Origin: Bacteroidota bacterium
GTDB lineage: Bacteria; Bacteroidota; Bacteroidia; AKYH767-A; JAHEYN01
Length of the DNA: 59,039 nucleotides
Reading direction: 5' to 3'
Assembly (NCBI GenBank): GCA_023251555.1
Contig: JAHEYN010000019.1
Coordinates: 1-59,039, forward strand
Both the position numbers and the translations under genes were made by a program. Below the pieces are notes generated by a model. It was not told where the DNA came from. It worked only from the letters and a program-made list of their open reading frames with translations, and made no database searches. This document shows, in pieces, positions 3,516 through 59,039 of the stretch. How positions within the stretch are numbered: the stretch's first letter is position 1; each line of letters opens with the position of its first letter.

Positions 3516-5324
3516 CTACCCGAGCATGAAATGTGCTTCCGGGTATTTATAGTTTGTTGTGGCTACTTTCTTGCTCAGGGCCAGGGCAAGTGTCAGCGTT
3601 CCCACCCGCCCGGCGAACATGCTGAGAATGAGAATAATCTTTCCGTAGCCTGAAAGATCCTGGGTGATCCCGGTGGAGAGCCCGACGGTACCGAAAGCCG
3701 ATACTTCTTCGAAGGCAAGGCGCAGCATGCCGAATCCGGGGTCAGTGATGAGGAGGGCTATGGTGGCAAAGAAAATAAGAGTGAGGGAAAAGGTAAGGAT
3801 GGAAAAAGCTTTGTTGAGAAGTTCAAAGGAGACGGAATGTTTGAGGAGCTCGAGGTTTCTTTTTCCCCTGATGGTGGAATAGGCAGACACAAGCAGGATC
3901 GTGAAGGTGGAAGTCTTTATTCCCCCTCCCGTAGAGGCCGAGGATGCGCCTATGAACATCAGGAAGATCATAATCATCAGCATGGAAGGGGCGATATGCG
4001 AAATATCCACGGTGTTGAATCCGGCGGTACGGCAGGTTACCGACTGGAAAACGGAGGTGATTCCGGCTTCCATGGTTTTCATGCCGGAGAGGGTATTGTT
4101 TTTTTCGAGGATGTAAAAACACGTTGCGCCGAAGATTACGAGGGCAACAGAGCTGTATAGTGAAATCTGTGTGCTGAGTTTAAGCCGTTTCCATTTCAGC
4201 CTCAGCCGCTCTCTCATGTTCCTTATGCCGAATATGTCCTGTATGGAAAAAAATCCCAGGCTGCCGAAAAAGATAATTGCCGCGAAGGCGAGGTGGAGGA
4301 CAAAAGATCCGCGGACACCGTCCTGGCAGAGATTTTTACTGAAGAGAGAGAAGCCTGCGTTGTTGAAAGCCGAGACGGAGTGAAACACGGAATAGAACCA
4401 TTTCTCCCACAGGCTGTTGAAATGCAGTGCGGGATCCCATAGGGAGAAGATGAGTATCGCTCCCGCACCTTCAATGAGAAACGCCATGGATATAATCTGC
4501 CGCAGCATGCCTTTGGCGCTGAAGAGGGAATCGGAACTGAAGTATTCCTGCAGCATGGTTTGCTGCTTGAGGCCAACACCTTTCTGCGTAAAGGATGCAA
4601 AGAAAGTGGCGAAGGAGATGATGTTGAGGCCTCCCATCTGTATCAGGAGCAGGATAACTATTTTTCCTTTCACACTGAAGAAAGTGGCGGTGTTTACGAC
4701 TGTAAGCCCTGTAACGCAACCGGCGCTGGTGGCGGTGAAAAGAGCAGGGATGAAATCCATGCTGCTGCGGGATGCGCTCATCTCCGGAAGCATCAGCAGC
4801 ACAGCGCCTCCCATAATGAGGATGATAAACGAGAGGAGAAACACTGTTCCGGGGTTTACTTTTATATTGGAAAAGAGGGTGGTGGCTTTGGCAACCTGCA
4901 TGATGAGGATGGCAAGGAGAATTGCCTGCATGAGGATAATGTAGACGTCCCTGTACTTGTAAAATCCTATGCTGAGGAAGAACCCCTGTACAGGGGTGAT
5001 ACCCATCAACCCGCCTATGCCGTCAATAATGATAATTATTGCCAGTATGCATTCCAGCCAAGTGTCCCGGAGAAATTTTCGGGGCTCAAAATCATAAAGG
5101 AACCGTGCAAAGTAGTTGAGCACATAAAATACGAAACTTCCCCTGATGATGAGAAGTTCTGCTTCCCTGAGTTTGTCATCCATGGGAAACCCGTAGTAAT
5201 ATACAATAGTCCCGAGCGAAATAAGGGAAACAACAAAAGAGAGCATACGGAAAATTCCGAGCACGATCCCTTTACTGCTGAAGAGATGAAGGTTGATGGT
5301 TTCCCTGAAACTGTGAAGTGACAT
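3516..5324 (-). CDS. trkH: TrkH-family potassium uptake channel subunit
   Basis: A 602-residue polytopic inner-membrane protein. Four selectivity-filter-like loops can be recognised in order: TSAGCVTGLTV, NNAGFSLF, TCRTAGFNTVDI and GTVGLSTGIT, each carrying the conserved filter glycine. This is the TrkH/KtrB superfamily fold, which imports K+ together with a cytoplasmic TrkA/KtrA regulator. No TrkA gene is present in the window. The protein is longer than the usual 450-500 residues: about 120-130 extra N-terminal residues form additional hydrophobic segments (FRMLSFVVSLISLGTIVYYYGF, and LECILAIIIIIDGIGGLMGI). It starts 2 bp after the kinase gene, so translation is probably coupled. Long antisense open frames over this gene are shadows. 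Confidence 0.9.
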   Translation of the reverse strand: MSLHSFRETINLHLFSSKGIVLGIFRMLSFVVSLISLGTIVYYYGFPMDDKLREAELLIIRGSFVFYVLNYFARFLYDFEPRKFLRDTWLECILAIIIIIDGIGGLMGITPVQGFFLSIGFYKYRDVYIILMQAILLAILIMQVAKATTLFSNIKVNPGTVFLLSFIILIMGGAVLLMLPEMSASRSSMDFIPALFTATSAGCVTGLTVVNTATFFSVKGKIVILLLIQMGGLNIISFATFFASFTQKGVGLKQQTMLQEYFSSDSLFSAKGMLRQIISMAFLIEGAGAILIFSLWDPALHFNSLWEKWFYSVFHSVSAFNNAGFSLFSKNLCQDGVRGSFVLHLAFAAIIFFGSLGFFSIQDIFGIRNMRERLRLKWKRLKLSTQISLYSSVALVIFGATCFYILEKNNTLSGMKTMEAGITSVFQSVTCRTAGFNTVDISHIAPSMLMIMIFLMFIGASSASTGGGIKTSTFTILLVSAYSTIRGKRNLELLKHSVSFELLNKAFSILTFSLTLIFFATIALLITDPGFGMLRLAFEEVSAFGTVGLSTGITQDLSGYGKIILILSMFAGRVGTLTLALALSKKVATTNYKYPEAHFMLG

Positions 5325-5326
5325 AC

Positions 5327-6349
5327 TTAATGCAGATCTATCCGGCTGGCTTCGGCAGCAAGCTGTTTGCTGTCAACAGGCACTACGCCTGCTTTTTCAC
5401 ATACCAGTCCCCCGGCAAGATTTGAAAGCGTGGCCATGGAAACAGGATCGAGCCCTGCCGCAAGGCAGAGTGCTGCAACGGCAATTACAGTATCGCCTGC
5501 ACCTGAGACGTCTGCAATATTCCTGATATGAGCAGGGATGAGCCTGTAGCCGGCCTTTCCTCCTGCAAGCACTCCCTTTTCAGAGAGGGTTACCATGATT
5601 GTTTCAATCTCCTGTTCCTGTCTTAGTTTTTCCAGGTACGGCACAAGCAGCATTGGGTCAGTAAAATCCTTATCCATCCTGATCCCATCTCTAAGCTCTC
5701 CCATGTTGGGTTTGAAAAGACTTACGTTCCTGTAGTGCCTGAAATTCTTTTTTTTCGGGTCTACGGCAACAGGTATTTTAAGCTTGCGTGCAGCGGAAAT
5801 AATTTCACTGATAAGATGTTCTGTGATAACGCCTTTGTCATAATCCTCGAAAATCACAGCGTCCGGCTTTTCTTTCCTGATAATGGATTTTATTTCTTCC
5901 CTAAGTTTTTTTTCGTCTTCCTGGCTGAGGGGTTTATCAGTCTCTTCATCCACTCTGAGCATCTGGTGGTTGCTGCCGATAATCCTCGTTTTAACGGTTG
6001 TGCTTCTCTCCCTGCTTGTAATGATTTCCCTGGGGGAGATGCCGCGGGAGCGCATGATCCAGAGGAGATTCCTGCCCGCCTCATCGTCTCCCACTACGGA
6101 GCACAGGATGGGTGTGGCTCCCATGGAGAGGATGTTGAGCGCCACGTTAGCTGCCCCGCCCGGGCGGTTTTCCTTTTTTTGTATGGTGACAACAGGTACC
6201 GGTGCTTCGGGGGAGATGCGTTCTACCTTTCCCCATACATAAGAATCAAGCATTACGTCCCCTACGATGAGGATACGCATGGAGGGGAAACGCCTGAAAA
6301 GAGTTTCCGTTTTCTTTAGGGGAGAAGTGGTTGATTTCTTTTTTTTCAT
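5327..6349 (-). CDS. D-glycero-beta-D-manno-heptose-7-phosphate kinase (RfaE1/HldA type)
   Basis: A 340-residue PfkB/ribokinase-family kinase. The N-terminal GDVMLDSYVWGKVERISPEAPVPVV segment is the hallmark of HldE/RfaE kinases, the RPGGAANVA motif marks the sugar site, and DVSGAGDTVIAVAAL near residue 285 holds the catalytic aspartate of the anion-hole motif. It phosphorylates heptose-7-phosphate to the 1,7-bisphosphate in ADP-heptose synthesis for LPS core. The protein ends after the kinase domain, so the nucleotidyltransferase half of bifunctional HldE is absent and must be encoded elsewhere if the pathway is complete. A lysine-rich leader (KKKKSTTSPLKK) precedes the domain, so an internal start at MRILIVGD (residue 24) is possible. 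It is the second gene of the operon. Confidence 0.85.
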   Translation of the reverse strand: MKKKKSTTSPLKKTETLFRRFPSMRILIVGDVMLDSYVWGKVERISPEAPVPVVTIQKKENRPGGAANVALNILSMGATPILCSVVGDDEAGRNLLWIMRSRGISPREIITSRERSTTVKTRIIGSNHQMLRVDEETDKPLSQEDEKKLREEIKSIIRKEKPDAVIFEDYDKGVITEHLISEIISAARKLKIPVAVDPKKKNFRHYRNVSLFKPNMGELRDGIRMDKDFTDPMLLVPYLEKLRQEQEIETIMVTLSEKGVLAGGKAGYRLIPAHIRNIADVSGAGDTVIAVAALCLAAGLDPVSMATLSNLAGGLVCEKAGVVPVDSKQLAAEASRIDLH

Positions 6350-6356
6350 GCCGGGG

Positions 6357-7550
6357 TTAACTTAATTCCGCAAGCGCTTTTTGCATTCTTGCAGCGGCTT
6401 CGGTGAGGCGTTCGTCGGATGTTGCATAGGAAAACCGGATGTGTTCGGGAGCGCCGAATGCATCTCCTGCCACAAGGGAAACTCTGGCATGGTTCAACAG
6501 GTACATGCACAGTTCGCCTGCATTGTTTATCTTCTCATTCCCGTTTCTTTTCCCGAAGAATGAACTTATTTCGGGGAACAGGTAAAATGCGCCCTGCGGA
6601 ATGTTCAGATTCATTCCCGGAATCTCTCCGAGGAGGCGGATCACGAGGTCCCGCCTCCGGAGGAAGGATTTTCTCATTTCGAGAGCAGGCGCATTGCCGC
6701 TGCTGATTGCCGCGAGGGCTGCCCTCTGTGAAATGGAGGAAGCGCCGGAAGTTACCTGTCCCTGGATTTTCTCACAGGCCGCTGCCACAGCCACCGGTCC
6801 GGCAAGGTACCCGATTCTCCATCCTGTCATGGCAAAGCTTTTGGAAACGCCGTTCACGATTATAACCTGCCCGCGGATAGCATCATTTGATGCTATGCTG
6901 TTATGGGAGCCTGTAAAGTTGATGTGTTCATAAATCTCGTCCGACAAAACAAAGATTTCGGGATGCATGGAAATTACCGCTGCAAGATCTTTCAGCTCAT
7001 CCGCTGAATATACGCTTCCCGTTGGGTTGCAGGGGGATGAAAACATGATCAGCCTGGTTCTGGGTGTGATGGCTTTTTCAAGCTGTGCGGGAGTAATCTT
7101 GAAGTCGTTTCCGATGGCTGTCTTTACAGGTACGGGATTTCCCTCAGCCATTCTGACTATTTCTGCATAACTTACCCAGTAGGGGGCAGGGAGGATCACA
7201 TCATCCCCGGGATTCACAATGCTTAAAACGGCATTATATATGGATTGCTTGGCTCCGGTCGATACAATAATTTCAGCAGGGCTGTAACTGAGGCCGTTTT
7301 CACGTTTGAACTTGGCGCAGACTGCTTCCCGGAGATCCTGGTAGCCGGCTACAGGTGTGTAATAACTGTAGTTTTCGTCAATGGCTTTCTTCGCTGCCTC
7401 TTTGATATGGGTCGGAGTGGGAAAGTCAGGTTCGCCAAGGCTCAGGTTGATGACGTCAAATCCTTTGGCGTTGAGCTCCCGGCTGAGCTTTGACATTTTA
7501 AGCGTTTCTGATTCGCTGAGGTGTGAGATACGCCCTGATAAACTGCCCAT
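6357..7550 (-). CDS. PLP-dependent class I aminotransferase (aspartate aminotransferase type)
   Basis: A fold-type I aminotransferase of 397 residues from the ATG at 7550 (MGSLSGRISHLSES), which fits family alignments better than an upstream extension of nine residues. Recognisable elements are LSLGEPDFPTP near the N-terminus, VSTGAKQSIYNAV, the substrate-binding CNPTGSVYS, the aspartate-tyrosine pair LSDEIYEH, and the PLP lysine in GVSKSFAMTGWRIGYLAGP. This matches the bacterial AspAT subgroup Ib, which transfers amino groups between aspartate or another amino acid and 2-oxoglutarate. Exact substrate specificity cannot be read from sequence. It is the first gene of the six-gene minus-strand operon. 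A TAGCTTTG -7 box lies about 25 bp upstream of the start. Confidence 0.9.
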   Translation of the reverse strand: MGSLSGRISHLSESETLKMSKLSRELNAKGFDVINLSLGEPDFPTPTHIKEAAKKAIDENYSYYTPVAGYQDLREAVCAKFKRENGLSYSPAEIIVSTGAKQSIYNAVLSIVNPGDDVILPAPYWVSYAEIVRMAEGNPVPVKTAIGNDFKITPAQLEKAITPRTRLIMFSSPCNPTGSVYSADELKDLAAVISMHPEIFVLSDEIYEHINFTGSHNSIASNDAIRGQVIIVNGVSKSFAMTGWRIGYLAGPVAVAAACEKIQGQVTSGASSISQRAALAAISSGNAPALEMRKSFLRRRDLVIRLLGEIPGMNLNIPQGAFYLFPEISSFFGKRNGNEKINNAGELCMYLLNHARVSLVAGDAFGAPEHIRFSYATSDERLTEAAARMQKALAELS

Positions 7551-53848: not shown

Positions 53849-55735
53849 TCATGTCACTGTGCTTATTCTCACCCCTATCACCAGTATGTCGTCTGTCTGT
53901 TCAAAGCCGCCCTTCCACCGTTCGATGAAAGCATCAAGGTCCGCTGCCTGTTTTTCCATGCTTTCATGCTGTATGGAAGCAAGCAGTTCCTTAAACCTGC
54001 CGGTCATCAGTTTTTTATCATCGGCATTGAACTGGTCGGCGTAGCCGTCGCTGAAGGTATAGAAAGTATCTCCCCGGCTCAGGGTGAATGTATGGCCTGT
54101 AAAAGTTCGCTCCTGTTCATAATCGGCTCCACCGACAGGAAGCTTGGTGGCTTTCACTTCCTGGAGAACTCCGCCGCGGAAAAGGTACAGCGGCCTCATT
54201 GCTCCCGCGTATTCCAGTATTGTGCCGGATTGTTCCTCTGCAATGCTGCACAGTGCGACATCCATCCCGTCCCTTGTCTCGGCGCCGAACACATCTGATT
54301 TCCCGTGCTGTTTAAGGGCTTCCCGTATGCCTGTATGAAGCCGGCGGAGGATTTCCGGCGGATGCGTAATTCCTTCTTCCTTCACAATCTGGTTCAGCAG
54401 GCTGCATCCTATCATGCTCATGAAAGCCCCGGGGACGCCATGGCCTGTGCAGTCGGCTGCCGCGATGATTACCCGGTTGTTTTTCCGCCCTGCCCAGTAA
54501 AAGTCGCCGCTCACGATATCCTTGGGCTTAAAAAGAATAAAGGAGTCCGGCAGCAGCTTCTTCACATCGTTTTCATGTGGCAGGATCGCGTGCTGGATAC
54601 GCTGCGCATAGTTGATGCTGTCGGTGATGGACCGGTTCTTCTCCTCAATTTTATCGTATGCTTCTTTAAGTTCCACGTTTTTAAGGCGGAAGATTTCAGC
54701 TTCTTTTTTTGAATTTTCAATGGCAAATCCTATCTGCTGGTGCTTGAGCTTATTGGTGGTTTCCGCGTTCAGCACTTCTTCCCTGAGCGCATGGAATAAC
54801 TTATAGTGTTCGAGCGACTTAACGGGATCATTCATTTTCTCATAAGCAGATGCAAGGGCGAGGTGTATCTCATAGCGCAGAGGCTTTGCCTTCAGGGAAA
54901 CGGCGATGTCAAGAGCCTGCTGAAGGCCGCGGACAGCCTCTTCCGCCCTTCCGTTTCTTACAGCAATATTACCGAGGCCCATGAGGCAATGCAGGGTGCA
55001 TCGCGGATCGCCGCTCGCATTTATCTCTTTGCTCCTGGTGTAGTTATCCGATGCGGATTTATCATCCTTCATTTTTTCATAAAGGCTGGCCATCCCGAGG
55101 TAAGTCCAGGGGAGCCCTCCCCGGTCATTATGTTCCTCACGCATTGCGAGACTTCGCCGGTAATAGGCGAGGCCGTTCCGGAAATCACCATTAAGCGTGT
55201 AGGTTCTTGCAAGCAGGTTCAGGGAAGATGCGGCTGCCCTGAAATTTTTGAGCTCCTCTCTTATTGAAAGGCTTCTGGTGAATGCATCAATTGCATGGTT
55301 ATAATCAGAAAGGCGGTTATAAATAAGTCCGATGGTTCCGAGCAGGTCAGCTTCGGCTTCCCTGTCCTCCTCAGGGTCAATGAGCTCAAGACCTTTCAGG
55401 CCGTGTTTCAGTGCATTTTCATATTCCCCGTAATTGTCATATACATTAGCGATAAAATTAAGAGCCCTCAGTTTTCCCTCTCTGTCAGATTCAGACTCGA
55501 AAAAGGCAAGGGCTGAAGTGAGATACTCAAGCAGGTTCTCATCATTCGACAATAAAAAATTAGCGGCGGCGGAAACCAGCTTTCCCCGGGCTATTCCCCG
55601 GGAGTAATTTATGCTTTCTGAAGATGCAAGTATTTGTTTCCCGAGAACGAGCGCCCTGGGAGTGTCAGCGTACCTGAGGTTCCAGGCCTCCGGGTAAAGA
55701 ATATCAATCTTTGTTCTGTTATCCTTTGTTACCAC
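53849..55735 (-). CDS. TPR-containing SpoIIE/PP2C-family phosphatase
   Basis: A 628-residue cytoplasmic protein read from the GTG at 55735, the only start near the stop of the upstream gene. Residues about 20-340 contain seven or eight TPR units (for example GEYENALKHGLKGLELIDPEEDREAEADLLGTIGLIYNRL, DYNHAIDAFTRSLSIREEL). A coiled-coil linker follows (KKEAEIFRLKNVELKEAYDKIEEKNRSITDSINYAQRIQHAIL), then the SpoIIE domain with KPKDIVSGDFYWAGR, AADCTGHGVPGAFMSMIG, FYTFSDGYADQF and FEQTDDILVIGV. It probably integrates protein-protein input through the TPRs to dephosphorylate a Ser/Thr-phosphorylated regulator. Its upstream partner, 11 bp away, is a membrane protein with GldL-like motifs. The phosphatase domain is homologous to that of 33456-34712. 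Confidence 0.88.
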   Translation of the reverse strand: MVTKDNRTKIDILYPEAWNLRYADTPRALVLGKQILASSESINYSRGIARGKLVSAAANFLLSNDENLLEYLTSALAFFESESDREGKLRALNFIANVYDNYGEYENALKHGLKGLELIDPEEDREAEADLLGTIGLIYNRLSDYNHAIDAFTRSLSIREELKNFRAAASSLNLLARTYTLNGDFRNGLAYYRRSLAMREEHNDRGGLPWTYLGMASLYEKMKDDKSASDNYTRSKEINASGDPRCTLHCLMGLGNIAVRNGRAEEAVRGLQQALDIAVSLKAKPLRYEIHLALASAYEKMNDPVKSLEHYKLFHALREEVLNAETTNKLKHQQIGFAIENSKKEAEIFRLKNVELKEAYDKIEEKNRSITDSINYAQRIQHAILPHENDVKKLLPDSFILFKPKDIVSGDFYWAGRKNNRVIIAAADCTGHGVPGAFMSMIGCSLLNQIVKEEGITHPPEILRRLHTGIREALKQHGKSDVFGAETRDGMDVALCSIAEEQSGTILEYAGAMRPLYLFRGGVLQEVKATKLPVGGADYEQERTFTGHTFTLSRGDTFYTFSDGYADQFNADDKKLMTGRFKELLASIQHESMEKQAADLDAFIERWKGGFEQTDDILVIGVRISTVT

Positions 55736-55746
55736 GATACCCGTAT

Positions 55747-56592
55747 TTACTGTACCGGCAGATCATAATAATACATTCCCCATGGTATGCTTTTTTGGCC
55801 GAAAATATCAATGAAAGAAGAGCGGAAAAGGAAAAACCATCCTGCGAAAATAAACACCACAAACCATGGAATAAGAATATTGTTTACAAGAAATGTCCGT
55901 TCTTTTTCCAGCCACTTTGTGAAGTTGGTGAGCTGTACCGACAGCAGCAGCACTACAGAACTGATGAGAAAGCATGCGGGGAAATAATTCTCCACCGCAG
56001 ATACCATTTCTCCGCCTCCCGGCCAGTGCTGTATTTTGAACAGCCAGGAGACGTAAAAAAAACCCATGATAAAACTGCATACAAGCCCCATGAGCCAGAG
56101 AACAGTGTTTTTTTTAAAGAACGAAAAAGAATACAGCATCTGTGCAAAGAAGTTGAAGGTCATCCCGGCGATTGATATAGTAAGAATGGGGCCTGCACCT
56201 GCCCAGTGTTTTGTTTTGAACACCCAGCCCAGTATGTAAAGAGCAAGCATTGCAATAAAAGTGCTGAGGGATTTCCTATTTCCCCCGCTCCGGCTCCCGA
56301 ACAGGAACTCTATAAAAGGGATTGAAAGGAAAATAAAAAAGCGTTCAATAATTCCGTTAAACGCCATGTAGGGATACCACCACAGGAAAATCTCCACGGC
56401 AATAAGAGCAGAAAGAATGAGCAGCAATGGCCTGCGCCGTTTTGTCCATGCAGCCCAAAGCAGGCCTGTGGCAATGGATGATAAAAGCAGCAGCAGCAGG
56501 CCGGGATAGGGGTACTCCCTGAATGAAAGGGCATAACCTGCAGCAGTCACTGCCGCAAGTCCCCCGATGATTAATTTCTGCTTCCTGTTCAT
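55747..56592 (-). CDS. Polytopic membrane protein with two GldL-like FKxxHWxGxG motifs
   Basis: A 281-residue inner-membrane protein with about eight hydrophobic segments and no recognised enzyme motif. Two segments read GWVFKTKHWAGAGP (about residue 118) and SWLFKIQHWPGGGEM (about residue 185). The string FKI-x-HWPG-A/G is the best-known feature of GldL, the membrane motor protein of type IX secretion and gliding, where it follows a transmembrane helix. Here it is duplicated inside a protein that lacks the long GldL C-terminal domain. I do not know a named family. It sits 11 bp before the TPR-SpoIIE phosphatase gene. The start ATG at 56592 begins a plausible first membrane helix (LIIGGLAAVTAAGYAL). 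Confidence 0.7.
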   Translation of the reverse strand: MNRKQKLIIGGLAAVTAAGYALSFREYPYPGLLLLLLSSIATGLLWAAWTKRRRPLLLILSALIAVEIFLWWYPYMAFNGIIERFFIFLSIPFIEFLFGSRSGGNRKSLSTFIAMLALYILGWVFKTKHWAGAGPILTISIAGMTFNFFAQMLYSFSFFKKNTVLWLMGLVCSFIMGFFYVSWLFKIQHWPGGGEMVSAVENYFPACFLISSVVLLLSVQLTNFTKWLEKERTFLVNNILIPWFVVFIFAGWFFLFRSSFIDIFGQKSIPWGMYYYDLPVQ

Positions 56593-56846: not shown

Positions 56847-56867
56847 ATGAAAATTCAATATAGCTGA
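56847..56867 (+). CDS. Possible six-codon leader peptide before the STAND gene
   Basis: ATG AAA ATT CAA TAT AGC TGA encodes MKIQYS. Its stop overlaps the next start as TGATG (stop 56865-56867, ATG 56867-56869), an arrangement that can couple translation. Such short frames also arise by chance, and no promoter evidence decides it. Confidence 0.25.
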   Translation: MKIQYS

Positions 56868-59039
56868 TGACCGGTTCACCCTTTAAATTCCTTGATTCCT
56901 TCACCAAAGAAGACCGTGAAATATTTTTCGGGCGGGAAAAGGAATCCGAAGAAATATATTCCCGTGTTTTCCAGGGCAATATCCTGCTGGCGTATGGGGC
57001 TTCCGGGACAGGGAAGACAAGTCTCATACAGTGCGGGCTGGCCAACAAATTCAGCGATTCAGACTGGCTTCCGATTCTTGTGCGGCGCGGTAACAATATG
57101 ATGGATTCATTGATAAACTCCATCCGCAATGCAGCCCTTACCCCGCTTAAGAATGAATCATCTCCCTCTCTGAAAAAATATTTACAGTCCCTTTACCTCG
57201 ACCACTTCAAACCTGTGTATCTTATCTTCGATCAGTTCGAGGAACTTTTCATTTTTGGTACCCGGGAGGAGATTGAAACATTCGCTGCCGGAATTGCGAA
57301 GGTTGTAAAGTCCGATCTGCAATGCAGGTTTATATTCGTGATGAGGGGAGAATACCTCGAACACCTCACCGTTTTTGAAGATCTCATCCCTTCTTTCTTC
57401 GACAACCGTATCCGCATCGAAAAGATGACACGTAAAAATGCCGCGGAAGCAATCCTCGGCCCCTGCAGGGTTTTTGATATTGAGGTTGAAGAAGGCTTTG
57501 CCCAGGCTTTGCTCGAAAGACTCTCGCCGGATAAGTCTGAAGTGGAACTCACTTACCTCCAGGTTTTCCTGGATAAAATATACAGGAAAAGCCTGTTGCT
57601 CAATACAGGGGGGCAAAAGCCAAAGTTCACACTCAGTCTTCTTGAAGGGCTTGGCCATATCGGCGATGTACTCTCTGATTTCCTGGAAGAGCAGATTGCG
57701 CTTATCCCCGATGCTGAAAATGCACTCACCGTGCTTAAAGCATTTGTCTCAACCGAGGGTACCAAGCGCCAGATAGATATTTACGAGATAAATGAGTTTA
57801 CGCGTACCATCGGGAAAGATCTTTCCAAGGAAACCCTCGAGAATTTCATACACCAGTTCGTAAACCTTCGTATACTGCGCGATAAGGACGAGCAGGGAAA
57901 ATATGAACTCCGGCACGACTCACTGGCAGCAAAGATTTATGAGAAAATTACCCTGGCGGAAAAAGAACTGATCGGGATACGGGAAATGATCGCCAGCCGC
58001 TGCAAAGAGTACGAAACCCGCGGTAATCTTCTTACACAGGAAGACCTGAACTATATCGCTCCCTATGAAAATAAAATTTTTCTTCGTGGCGAAGCGGAAA
58101 CTTTTTACAATAAAAGCAAACAGGTAATAAGGAGCACTATGCGGCTGAAACGCAGGGTGGCTGTCATGTCTCTCCTCAGCATTCTTCTCTTAACTTCCGC
58201 CGTAGCATTCTGGTTTTATCAGGAAGGCAATGTCTCCAGGTCCAATGAGCTTGCAGCCCTATCTCTTGTCAAACTGGAGACGGATCCTACTCTCGCATAC
58301 CTTCTTGCAGAGGAAGCATGGAAAAAAAATCCGGAAGGGGAACTTGCCCTCAAAGCCCTTGTAAACGCATATAGCCATGGACCTTTTTATAGTACCGTGA
58401 AAGGAGATAAGTACGACATTTCTCCTGATAGTAAAATTATCGTTACTACCTCATCTGACAGCGCCGTTAGTATCTACGATATGGAGGGAACTCTTTTGAA
58501 GTACCTTAAATTCAATGTGGAGCAGGAAATAATACAGGGAGAGGCTTTTGCCTCCGGCGGGAAAAGGTTTTTCCTGAGGGACAGGCACGGAAACTATACC
58601 GTGATGAGCCTCAGCGGAGAAAAACTTCATTTTTTTGAGAATCCCGGGATTAAAAAAACTCTTTTCGATTTTTCTTTCCAGCCGGGCGCAGACGGATGCC
58701 TCTTAAACCGCGGCAGTGATTTCAGTGTTTACAACTCCTCATGGGAAGAACTTTTCAGGGTTTCCAACAAGGGTATGCGCAGCATGGATGCAAAGTTTTC
58801 TCCCGACGGGAAAAGCATTATGGGCTATGCTGATAATACAATCCGGGTTTTTAATATGGAGGGAAAAGAAGTGAGAAAATTCACCTGTGACGACGGAGCC
58901 TTTATCACCGATGCTGATTTTTCCGGAAATTTTATTGTGACAACTTCGGTTGAAAAAAATAAAAATGAGAACATTATTAGATCTCTGTACACAAGCGAAG
59001 GAAAGAAATGCTTAACCGGAAATAGGCGGGGCTATTCAA
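56867..59039 (+). CDS. STAND-type (nSTAND1-like) ATPase with WD40-like region, 3' end outside window
   Basis: At least 724 residues, and the frame is still open at the window end. The N-terminal NTPase has REIFFGREKESEEI, the P-loop AYGASGTGKTSLIQCG at residues 42-57, and a Walker B with two acidic residues in VYLIFDQFEELFIFG. The winged-helix-like end of the module reads YELRHDSLAAKIYEKI. One transmembrane helix follows near residues 430-450 (VAVMSLLSILLLTSAVAFWFY). After it come SNELAALSLVKLETDPTLAYLLAEEAWK and beta-propeller repeats (YDISPDSKIIVTTSSDSAVSIYDMEGTLLKYL, AKFSPDGKSIMGYADNTIRVFNMEGKEV). STAND ATPases are signal switches, often in immunity or stress sensing. The upstream tandem repeats and possible leader ORF make its control unusual. 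Confidence 0.82.
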   Translation, partial: MTGSPFKFLDSFTKEDREIFFGREKESEEIYSRVFQGNILLAYGASGTGKTSLIQCGLANKFSDSDWLPILVRRGNNMMDSLINSIRNAALTPLKNESSPSLKKYLQSLYLDHFKPVYLIFDQFEELFIFGTREEIETFAAGIAKVVKSDLQCRFIFVMRGEYLEHLTVFEDLIPSFFDNRIRIEKMTRKNAAEAILGPCRVFDIEVEEGFAQALLERLSPDKSEVELTYLQVFLDKIYRKSLLLNTGGQKPKFTLSLLEGLGHIGDVLSDFLEEQIALIPDAENALTVLKAFVSTEGTKRQIDIYEINEFTRTIGKDLSKETLENFIHQFVNLRILRDKDEQGKYELRHDSLAAKIYEKITLAEKELIGIREMIASRCKEYETRGNLLTQEDLNYIAPYENKIFLRGEAETFYNKSKQVIRSTMRLKRRVAVMSLLSILLLTSAVAFWFYQEGNVSRSNELAALSLVKLETDPTLAYLLAEEAWKKNPEGELALKALVNAYSHGPFYSTVKGDKYDISPDSKIIVTTSSDSAVSIYDMEGTLLKYLKFNVEQEIIQGEAFASGGKRFFLRDRHGNYTVMSLSGEKLHFFENPGIKKTLFDFSFQPGADGCLLNRGSDFSVYNSSWEELFRVSNKGMRSMDAKFSPDGKSIMGYADNTIRVFNMEGKEVRKFTCDDGAFITDADFSGNFIVTTSVEKNKNENIIRSLYTSEGKKCLTGNRRGYS

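Follow-up and report, generated by a model that had tools for sequence, protein, structure and literature searches.

A polytopic membrane protein with two GldL-type hairpins as a candidate input of a SiaA-like phosphatase in Bacteroidota

We analysed a 59,039-nt contig of a Bacteroidota bacterium (JAHEYN010000019.1; the whole stretch is called the window) and found near its end a two-gene unit that encodes a membrane protein with two GldL-type hairpins and a SiaA-like TPR-SpoIIE phosphatase. The pair is real, is conserved in a narrow lineage, and is tied through fusion proteins to a wider signalling use of motor-like membrane parts. We propose, with a probability of roughly one in two, that the membrane protein is the membrane input or anchor of a Sia-type partner switch that is linked to an nSTAND ATPase.

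The gene pair and its neighbors

The membrane gene (55747 to 56592, minus strand) encodes a 281-residue polytopic protein with about nine predicted transmembrane (TM) helices, a topology based on hydropathy and on helix limits from a low-confidence model. That structure model, built from two sequences, had a pLDDT of 44.9 and was set aside, and its helix pattern agrees with about nine TM helices. The sequence-only reading had reported the GldL motif twice in this protein, and both copies are present, FKTKHWAGAG at residues 125 to 134 (56191 to 56220, minus strand) and FKIQHWPGGG at residues 185 to 194 (56011 to 56040, minus strand). The Pfam GldL_N model (PF22827) matched two stretches of the protein, with a score of 27.5 bits (cut-off 24), and each hairpin taken singly in a six-frame search stayed below that cut-off. 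The score with the NCBIfam GldL model TIGR03513 was far below its cut-off (16.5 versus 68.3), so that the HMM comparison with GldL suggested in the sequence-only reading came out positive with the first model and negative with the second. A profile built on the window membrane protein (profile A1) matched a single chain among the solved structures, GldL 7sau_C (E = 0.016). The charges of the loops fit a likely periplasmic position of the motif loops, as in GldL. At the DNA level, a degenerate form of the motif occurred exactly at four places in the 2.84-Mb genome, while the reversed control pattern did not occur. Two of these places are in the membrane gene, one is in GldL itself, and one is in a 170-residue frame on contig C52. 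A polytopic-looking protein of 166 residues on C52 (L011:6509-7009) carries a single GldL motif, FKLHHWPGAG, without a Glu at motif position +19.

The phosphatase gene (53849 to 55735, minus strand) lies 11 nt downstream of the membrane gene and encodes an intact-looking protein of 628 residues. As had been claimed from the sequence, it combines a protein-interaction region, the tetratricopeptide repeats (TPRs), with a SpoIIE phosphatase domain (residues 419 to 624; 53864 to 54481, minus strand; Pfam, 3.6e-19). The four PP2C-type motifs that we searched for are all kept, and no GldL hairpin was found in the chain. The NCBIfam SiaA model NF038263 matched at 3.7e-52, a domain-level match only, with a score of 177.8 versus an equivalog cut-off of 700. 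Among solved chains the phosphatase matched 6k4e, a putative serine phosphatase that we take to be the PP2C domain of SiaA (1.3e-29). At 1e-50, the window phosphatase has 15 matches in the genome, counting the window copy. A second SpoIIE phosphatase of 418 residues with an N-terminal membrane part is encoded on the same contig (33456 to 34712, plus strand).

Divergent from the pair, a gene that the sequence-only reading had missed starts at 56867 and is cut off by the end of the contig at 59039 (plus strand). It encodes an nSTAND1-TM-WD40 ATPase (PF20703, 1.9e-40) with a Walker A motif, GASGTGKTS. The GldKLMN cluster of this genome is on another contig, C21, and neither GldK, GldM, nor GldN is encoded beside the window pair, in agreement with the claim that GldM/N neighbors are missing.

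The order search included just one other genome of the same family, G411, which has the same three-gene arrangement of phosphatase, membrane, and nSTAND genes. The phosphatase is 51% identical to that of the window, the nSTAND protein 50%, and the membrane protein 35%, and the membrane gene and phosphatase gene are 5 nt apart. A contig scan by weak peptide patterns also gave one locus, that of G411, and a single-protein query at 1e-8 of a first phylum sample found the window's own genome only. Strong matches to all three genes occurred in 2 of 42 order genomes, so the pair that was described as a unit from the sequence is kept in G411 and the three-gene block is narrowly distributed. Behind the nSTAND gene of G411 is a 344-residue gene (L034:3176-4210) without any Pfam match, whose RNEIGH sequence we presume to resemble a HEPN-type Rx4H motif. 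A relative that is 79% identical across the two genera is found in the window's own genome at C54:14942-15973; contig C54 probably abuts the window, because this relative, near the contig's end, adjoins a frame that probably encodes the rest of the nSTAND protein.

In each of the five strongest relatives (the window, G411, G465, G748, and G491), the membrane gene stands directly next to an nSTAND1 gene, in divergent, convergent, or same-strand order. A SpoIIE gene is beside the membrane gene in two of the five, the window and G411, and none was seen next door in the nSTAND-linked loci of G465, G748, and G491. For this particular subfamily, the proposed link to SpoIIE is thus based on two genomes and on analogy with the fusions.

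The missing glutamate and the two-hairpin unit

In Flavobacterium johnsoniae GldL, E49 in TM helix 2 is reported to be strictly conserved and essential, and GldL responds to the proton gradient (PMC8986121). Hairpins were aligned gap-free on the motif, and only text-pattern matches were counted, with decayed hairpins left out. From this alignment we took motif position +19 as the equivalent of E49 and +29 as that of E59. Glu was present at both positions in all eight GldL proteins compared. It was absent from position +19 in all 29 non-GldL hairpins (2 from the window, 2 from G411, 3 from nSTAND-linked loci, 9 from SpoIIE-fused proteins, 10 from the PadR-linked type described below, and 3 from small proteins). 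The window hairpins have Met (motif 1) and Phe (motif 2) at the E49 position. Hairpin 2 has acidic residues at +10 and +16, which are not conserved in G411. Since both window hairpins lack the TM2 glutamate, the protein is not likely to be a proton sensor or motor of the GldL kind, and the energy-sensor proposal was not supported in the form of GldL-like sensing of the proton gradient.

Both copies of the hairpin matched in 11 proteins; in 10 of them the spacing was 60 residues, and in the remaining one it was 61. This constant spacing across proteins of very different lengths argues that a two-hairpin unit was inherited and that the motif was not reused by chance. Profile A1 at 1e-5 matched in at least 66 of 395 genomes of the class, a lower bound, as are all class counts given here, with 5 to 6 candidates scored per genome. 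Some of these matches are likely GldL itself, with only hairpin 1 covered in frames of about 265 to 290 residues. In the order genomes, weak GldL_N matches were found, besides GldL, in frames of about 62 to 420 residues and one of 632. The hairpin motif is not private to the type IX secretion system (T9SS), and the two-hairpin unit recurs in other membrane proteins. Sharing of the motif with other membrane proteins had been named as an observation that would count against the sequence-only reading; the motif is indeed widely shared, but as an apparently homologous hairpin and not by chance.

Fused and PadR-linked relatives

We built a second profile (A3) from residues ~1 to 360 of five proteins in which the hairpins are fused to SpoIIE and ran it on the 395 class genomes. 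At 1e-10 it matched in at least 237 of them, and the matches listed were mostly GldM-length frames aligned only over ~140 to 355. At least 8 of the 395 genomes had frames of 689 to 762 residues with a near full-length match (1e-78 to 1e-185). All eight long frames (L114 to L118, L161, L163, and L164) combine a SpoIIE domain with GldL-type hairpins and a GldM-like segment in a single chain, and all eight match the GldM N-terminal domain PF12081 (7e-13 to 2e-18). Five of the eight were used to build A3 and so match it by construction, and those of G555, G670, and G714 are independent. The profile of the window membrane protein reached the fused frames at ~1e-9 to 1e-6, and the 60-residue spacing is found in the three fused proteins in which both hairpin copies matched. 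Against solved structures, A3 matched PorM/GldM over the TM and D1 region (7sat, 6e-12; 7cmg; 6ey0; 7sau). Five potassium-channel matches at ~0.006 in that search were taken as chance.

A ninth fusion (L119, 453 residues) has hairpins and SpoIIE and no GldM match. A census of PF12081 in a phylum sample, whose genomes largely differ from the class sample that yielded the fusions, gave matches in 94 of 395 genomes, mostly in GldM-length frames and never in frames of 689 to 762 residues. One further genome, G716, was considered as a second split pair (L174/L187, contig C15) and was rejected and not counted. It is probably a frame break, because the two frames (318 and 378 residues) sum to the length of a fusion, the match stops in the middle of a domain, and the first frame has no Pfam GldM match. 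The strongest evidence that hairpin proteins cooperate with SpoIIE phosphatases comes from the single-chain fusions, which together with the 11-nt gap and the conserved pair in G411 bear out the two-gene unit.

A tree of SpoIIE domains was made from 32 of the 34 domains found, two of fewer than 170 residues being left out. The window phosphatase pairs with that of G411 (98/87), and the fusion of genome G453 and a paralogue from the window's own genome are close to it at a node (87/86) that was not starred. The other eight of the nine fused domains form a separate clade (100/99). The window phosphatase does not come out as the plain sister group of these fused domains, so fusion of the hairpin module, or a swap of the phosphatase domain, occurred more than once. 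Two neighboring phosphatase genes on contig C26 of the same genome (L132:1638-3563 and 3536-6841) have almost identical SpoIIE domains (branches of 0 and 0.004), as would be expected after a recent duplication or gene conversion.

A third type of protein, of about 390 to 490 residues, has an N-terminal LxDHxC stretch, two GldL-type hairpins, and usually a GldM-D1-like segment; examples are L035:425-1651 in G411, L119:4501-5661, and L165 to L180. Among 30 loci found with A3, 15 frames had hairpins and LxDHxC, and 12 of the 15 adjoin a frame that is PadR-like by text pattern. L173 has PadR without the LxDHxC signature. Pfam confirmed PadR in two other loci, L119 and L136. HAAS domains are known as neighbors of PadR, and none was found by Pfam in the third-type proteins scanned. 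We noticed no motor genes in the PadR-linked and SpoIIE-fused stretches.

A proposed partner switch, its rivals, and known systems

SiaC was found in all 11 genomes searched, and the NTSS phosphosite is present in eight of nine SiaC sequences looked at, the ninth being a Ser-containing variant. The window's own genome has three SiaC matches, two of them with SiaB beside them (contigs C26 and C9), and none adjoins the window pair. The C26 locus is a run of three genes, for a full-length TPR-SpoIIE paralogue with 38% identity, a SiaB kinase that scored 175.8 bits versus a cut-off of 85, and SiaC. In G411, ~4 kb separate SiaC from the orthologous phosphatase, and the two are on different strands. 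Among the genomes with fusions, G490 has two SiaC genes ahead of the fused gene on the same strand, and in G453 one same-strand row runs from SiaC over a lipoprotein-like gene and an ABC transporter to the fused phosphatase; the other four of the six fused genomes searched (G580, G486, G734, and G603) had no SiaC match closer than 10 kb to the fused gene. A row of SiaC, lipoprotein-like gene, and ABC transporter recurs in three genomes, at L133:1242-5643, L115:2233-6649, and L034:11016-15358, and this transporter row is a candidate SiaC output in Bacteroidota. Pfam found no FHA domain in the SiaC-linked ABC transporter, so we rejected the suggestion that phospho-SiaC binds there. In Pseudomonas aeruginosa, the phosphorylation state of SiaC at Thr68 is controlled by SiaA together with SiaB (PMC7647112).

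We suggest that the membrane protein would serve a SiaA-like partner-switch phosphatase as its input, or anchor, within the membrane. Its two hairpins, with loops predicted to be periplasmic, would be kept for structure without the proton-carrying glutamate. In response to a putative stimulus, they would contact the soluble phosphatase and relay a conformational change, or a state of assembly, to it by way of its TPR/coiled-coil part. The enzyme would in turn remove the phosphate from the conserved threonine of a candidate SiaC-family target, opposing a SiaB-family kinase. The nSTAND1-WD40 ATPase would be the third member and probably gates or drives the membrane protein.

The nSTAND linkage also fits a different role, that of a conflict or stress module in which the nSTAND1-WD40 protein is the sensor, the membrane protein the effector or anchor, and the phosphatase an accessory in this lineage only. 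The constant nSTAND1 neighborhood in three orientations, with SpoIIE in only two of the five loci, and the patchy distribution speak for such a module. However, PADLOC-DB gave no convincing defence match (the nSTAND genes matched weakly, at best IetA at 1.7e-4, the phosphatase had a generic TPR match, and the membrane protein had no match), no toxin domain was recognized among the scanned proteins, and the SpoIIE fusions elsewhere favor signalling. We consider this module possible but rather unlikely.

The two readings that tie the protein to the motor or its proton gradient fare worse. A role in regulating or assisting the T9SS/gliding motor, as first proposed, would account for the GldL-like hairpins and the A1 match to 7sau_C in a genome that does encode GldKLMN, but those genes are on another contig, the hairpins lack the TM2 glutamate, and there are hairpin proteins next to PadR, or in fusion with SpoIIE, in stretches where no motor genes were noticed. 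Moreover, a GldL_N match over the cut-off was found in 40 of 42 order genomes and the block in only two, which tells against a motor-specific regulator and makes this role improbable. A sensor of membrane energy that signals through dephosphorylation draws on the reported proton-gradient response of GldL (PMC8986121) and on the compatible hairpin orientation. The absence of Glu at the E49 position from all 29 non-GldL hairpins, the window pair included, and of the hairpin 2 acidic residues from G411 makes it the least probable of all.

Returning to the partner-switch reading, we see a broader possibility, which we hold tentatively and at somewhat less than even odds, that GldL hairpins and the GldM TM-D1 segment form a portable Bacteroidota receptor outside the motor, uncoupled from protons, whose outputs are SpoIIE (fused or split), PadR-linked proteins, and nSTAND. 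GldLM is regarded as a dedicated proton motor; our results suggest that motor parts double as signalling receptors, and such receptors may even have given rise to the motor, or the motor to them. In the literature outside subscription journals and preprints, we found nothing joining GldL or GldM with SpoIIE, nothing relevant on GldL with PadR, and no result for GldM and GldL with "phosphatase domain"; the matches listed on GldL paralogues held nothing on a signalling use of motor-like parts. Glutamate-less hairpins and a D1-like segment in signalling proteins suggest a second life for the motor architecture and offer a testable idea on the origin of the motor. These natural glutamate-less versions could separate the structural from the energetic roles of the conserved FKxxHW residues, and they hint at the input side of Bacteroidota Sia-type partner switches.

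The membrane protein resembles GldL/PorL in its two-TM hairpin with FKxxHWxGxG and probably periplasmic loops, but it has two hairpins in a chain of about nine TM helices, has no cytoplasmic GldL domain, lacks the TM2 glutamate in both hairpins, and scores far under the TIGR03513 cut-off. The eight long fused proteins share the hairpin unit and a SiaA-like SpoIIE domain with the window pair. They differ in being one chain with a GldM TM/D1 segment and no Pfam TPR match, whereas the window protein has no GldM D1. The divergent gene at 56867 matches the nSTAND1-WD40 NTPases (PF20703) and is here partnered with a GldL-hairpin membrane protein. SiaA of the P. aeruginosa SiaABCD system is the best match of the SpoIIE/PP2C domain, and the SiaB and SiaC families are both present in the genome. 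SiaA has its own membrane sensor, whereas the window phosphatase is a soluble TPR chain, with the membrane part in a separate gene and the sia genes not adjacent.
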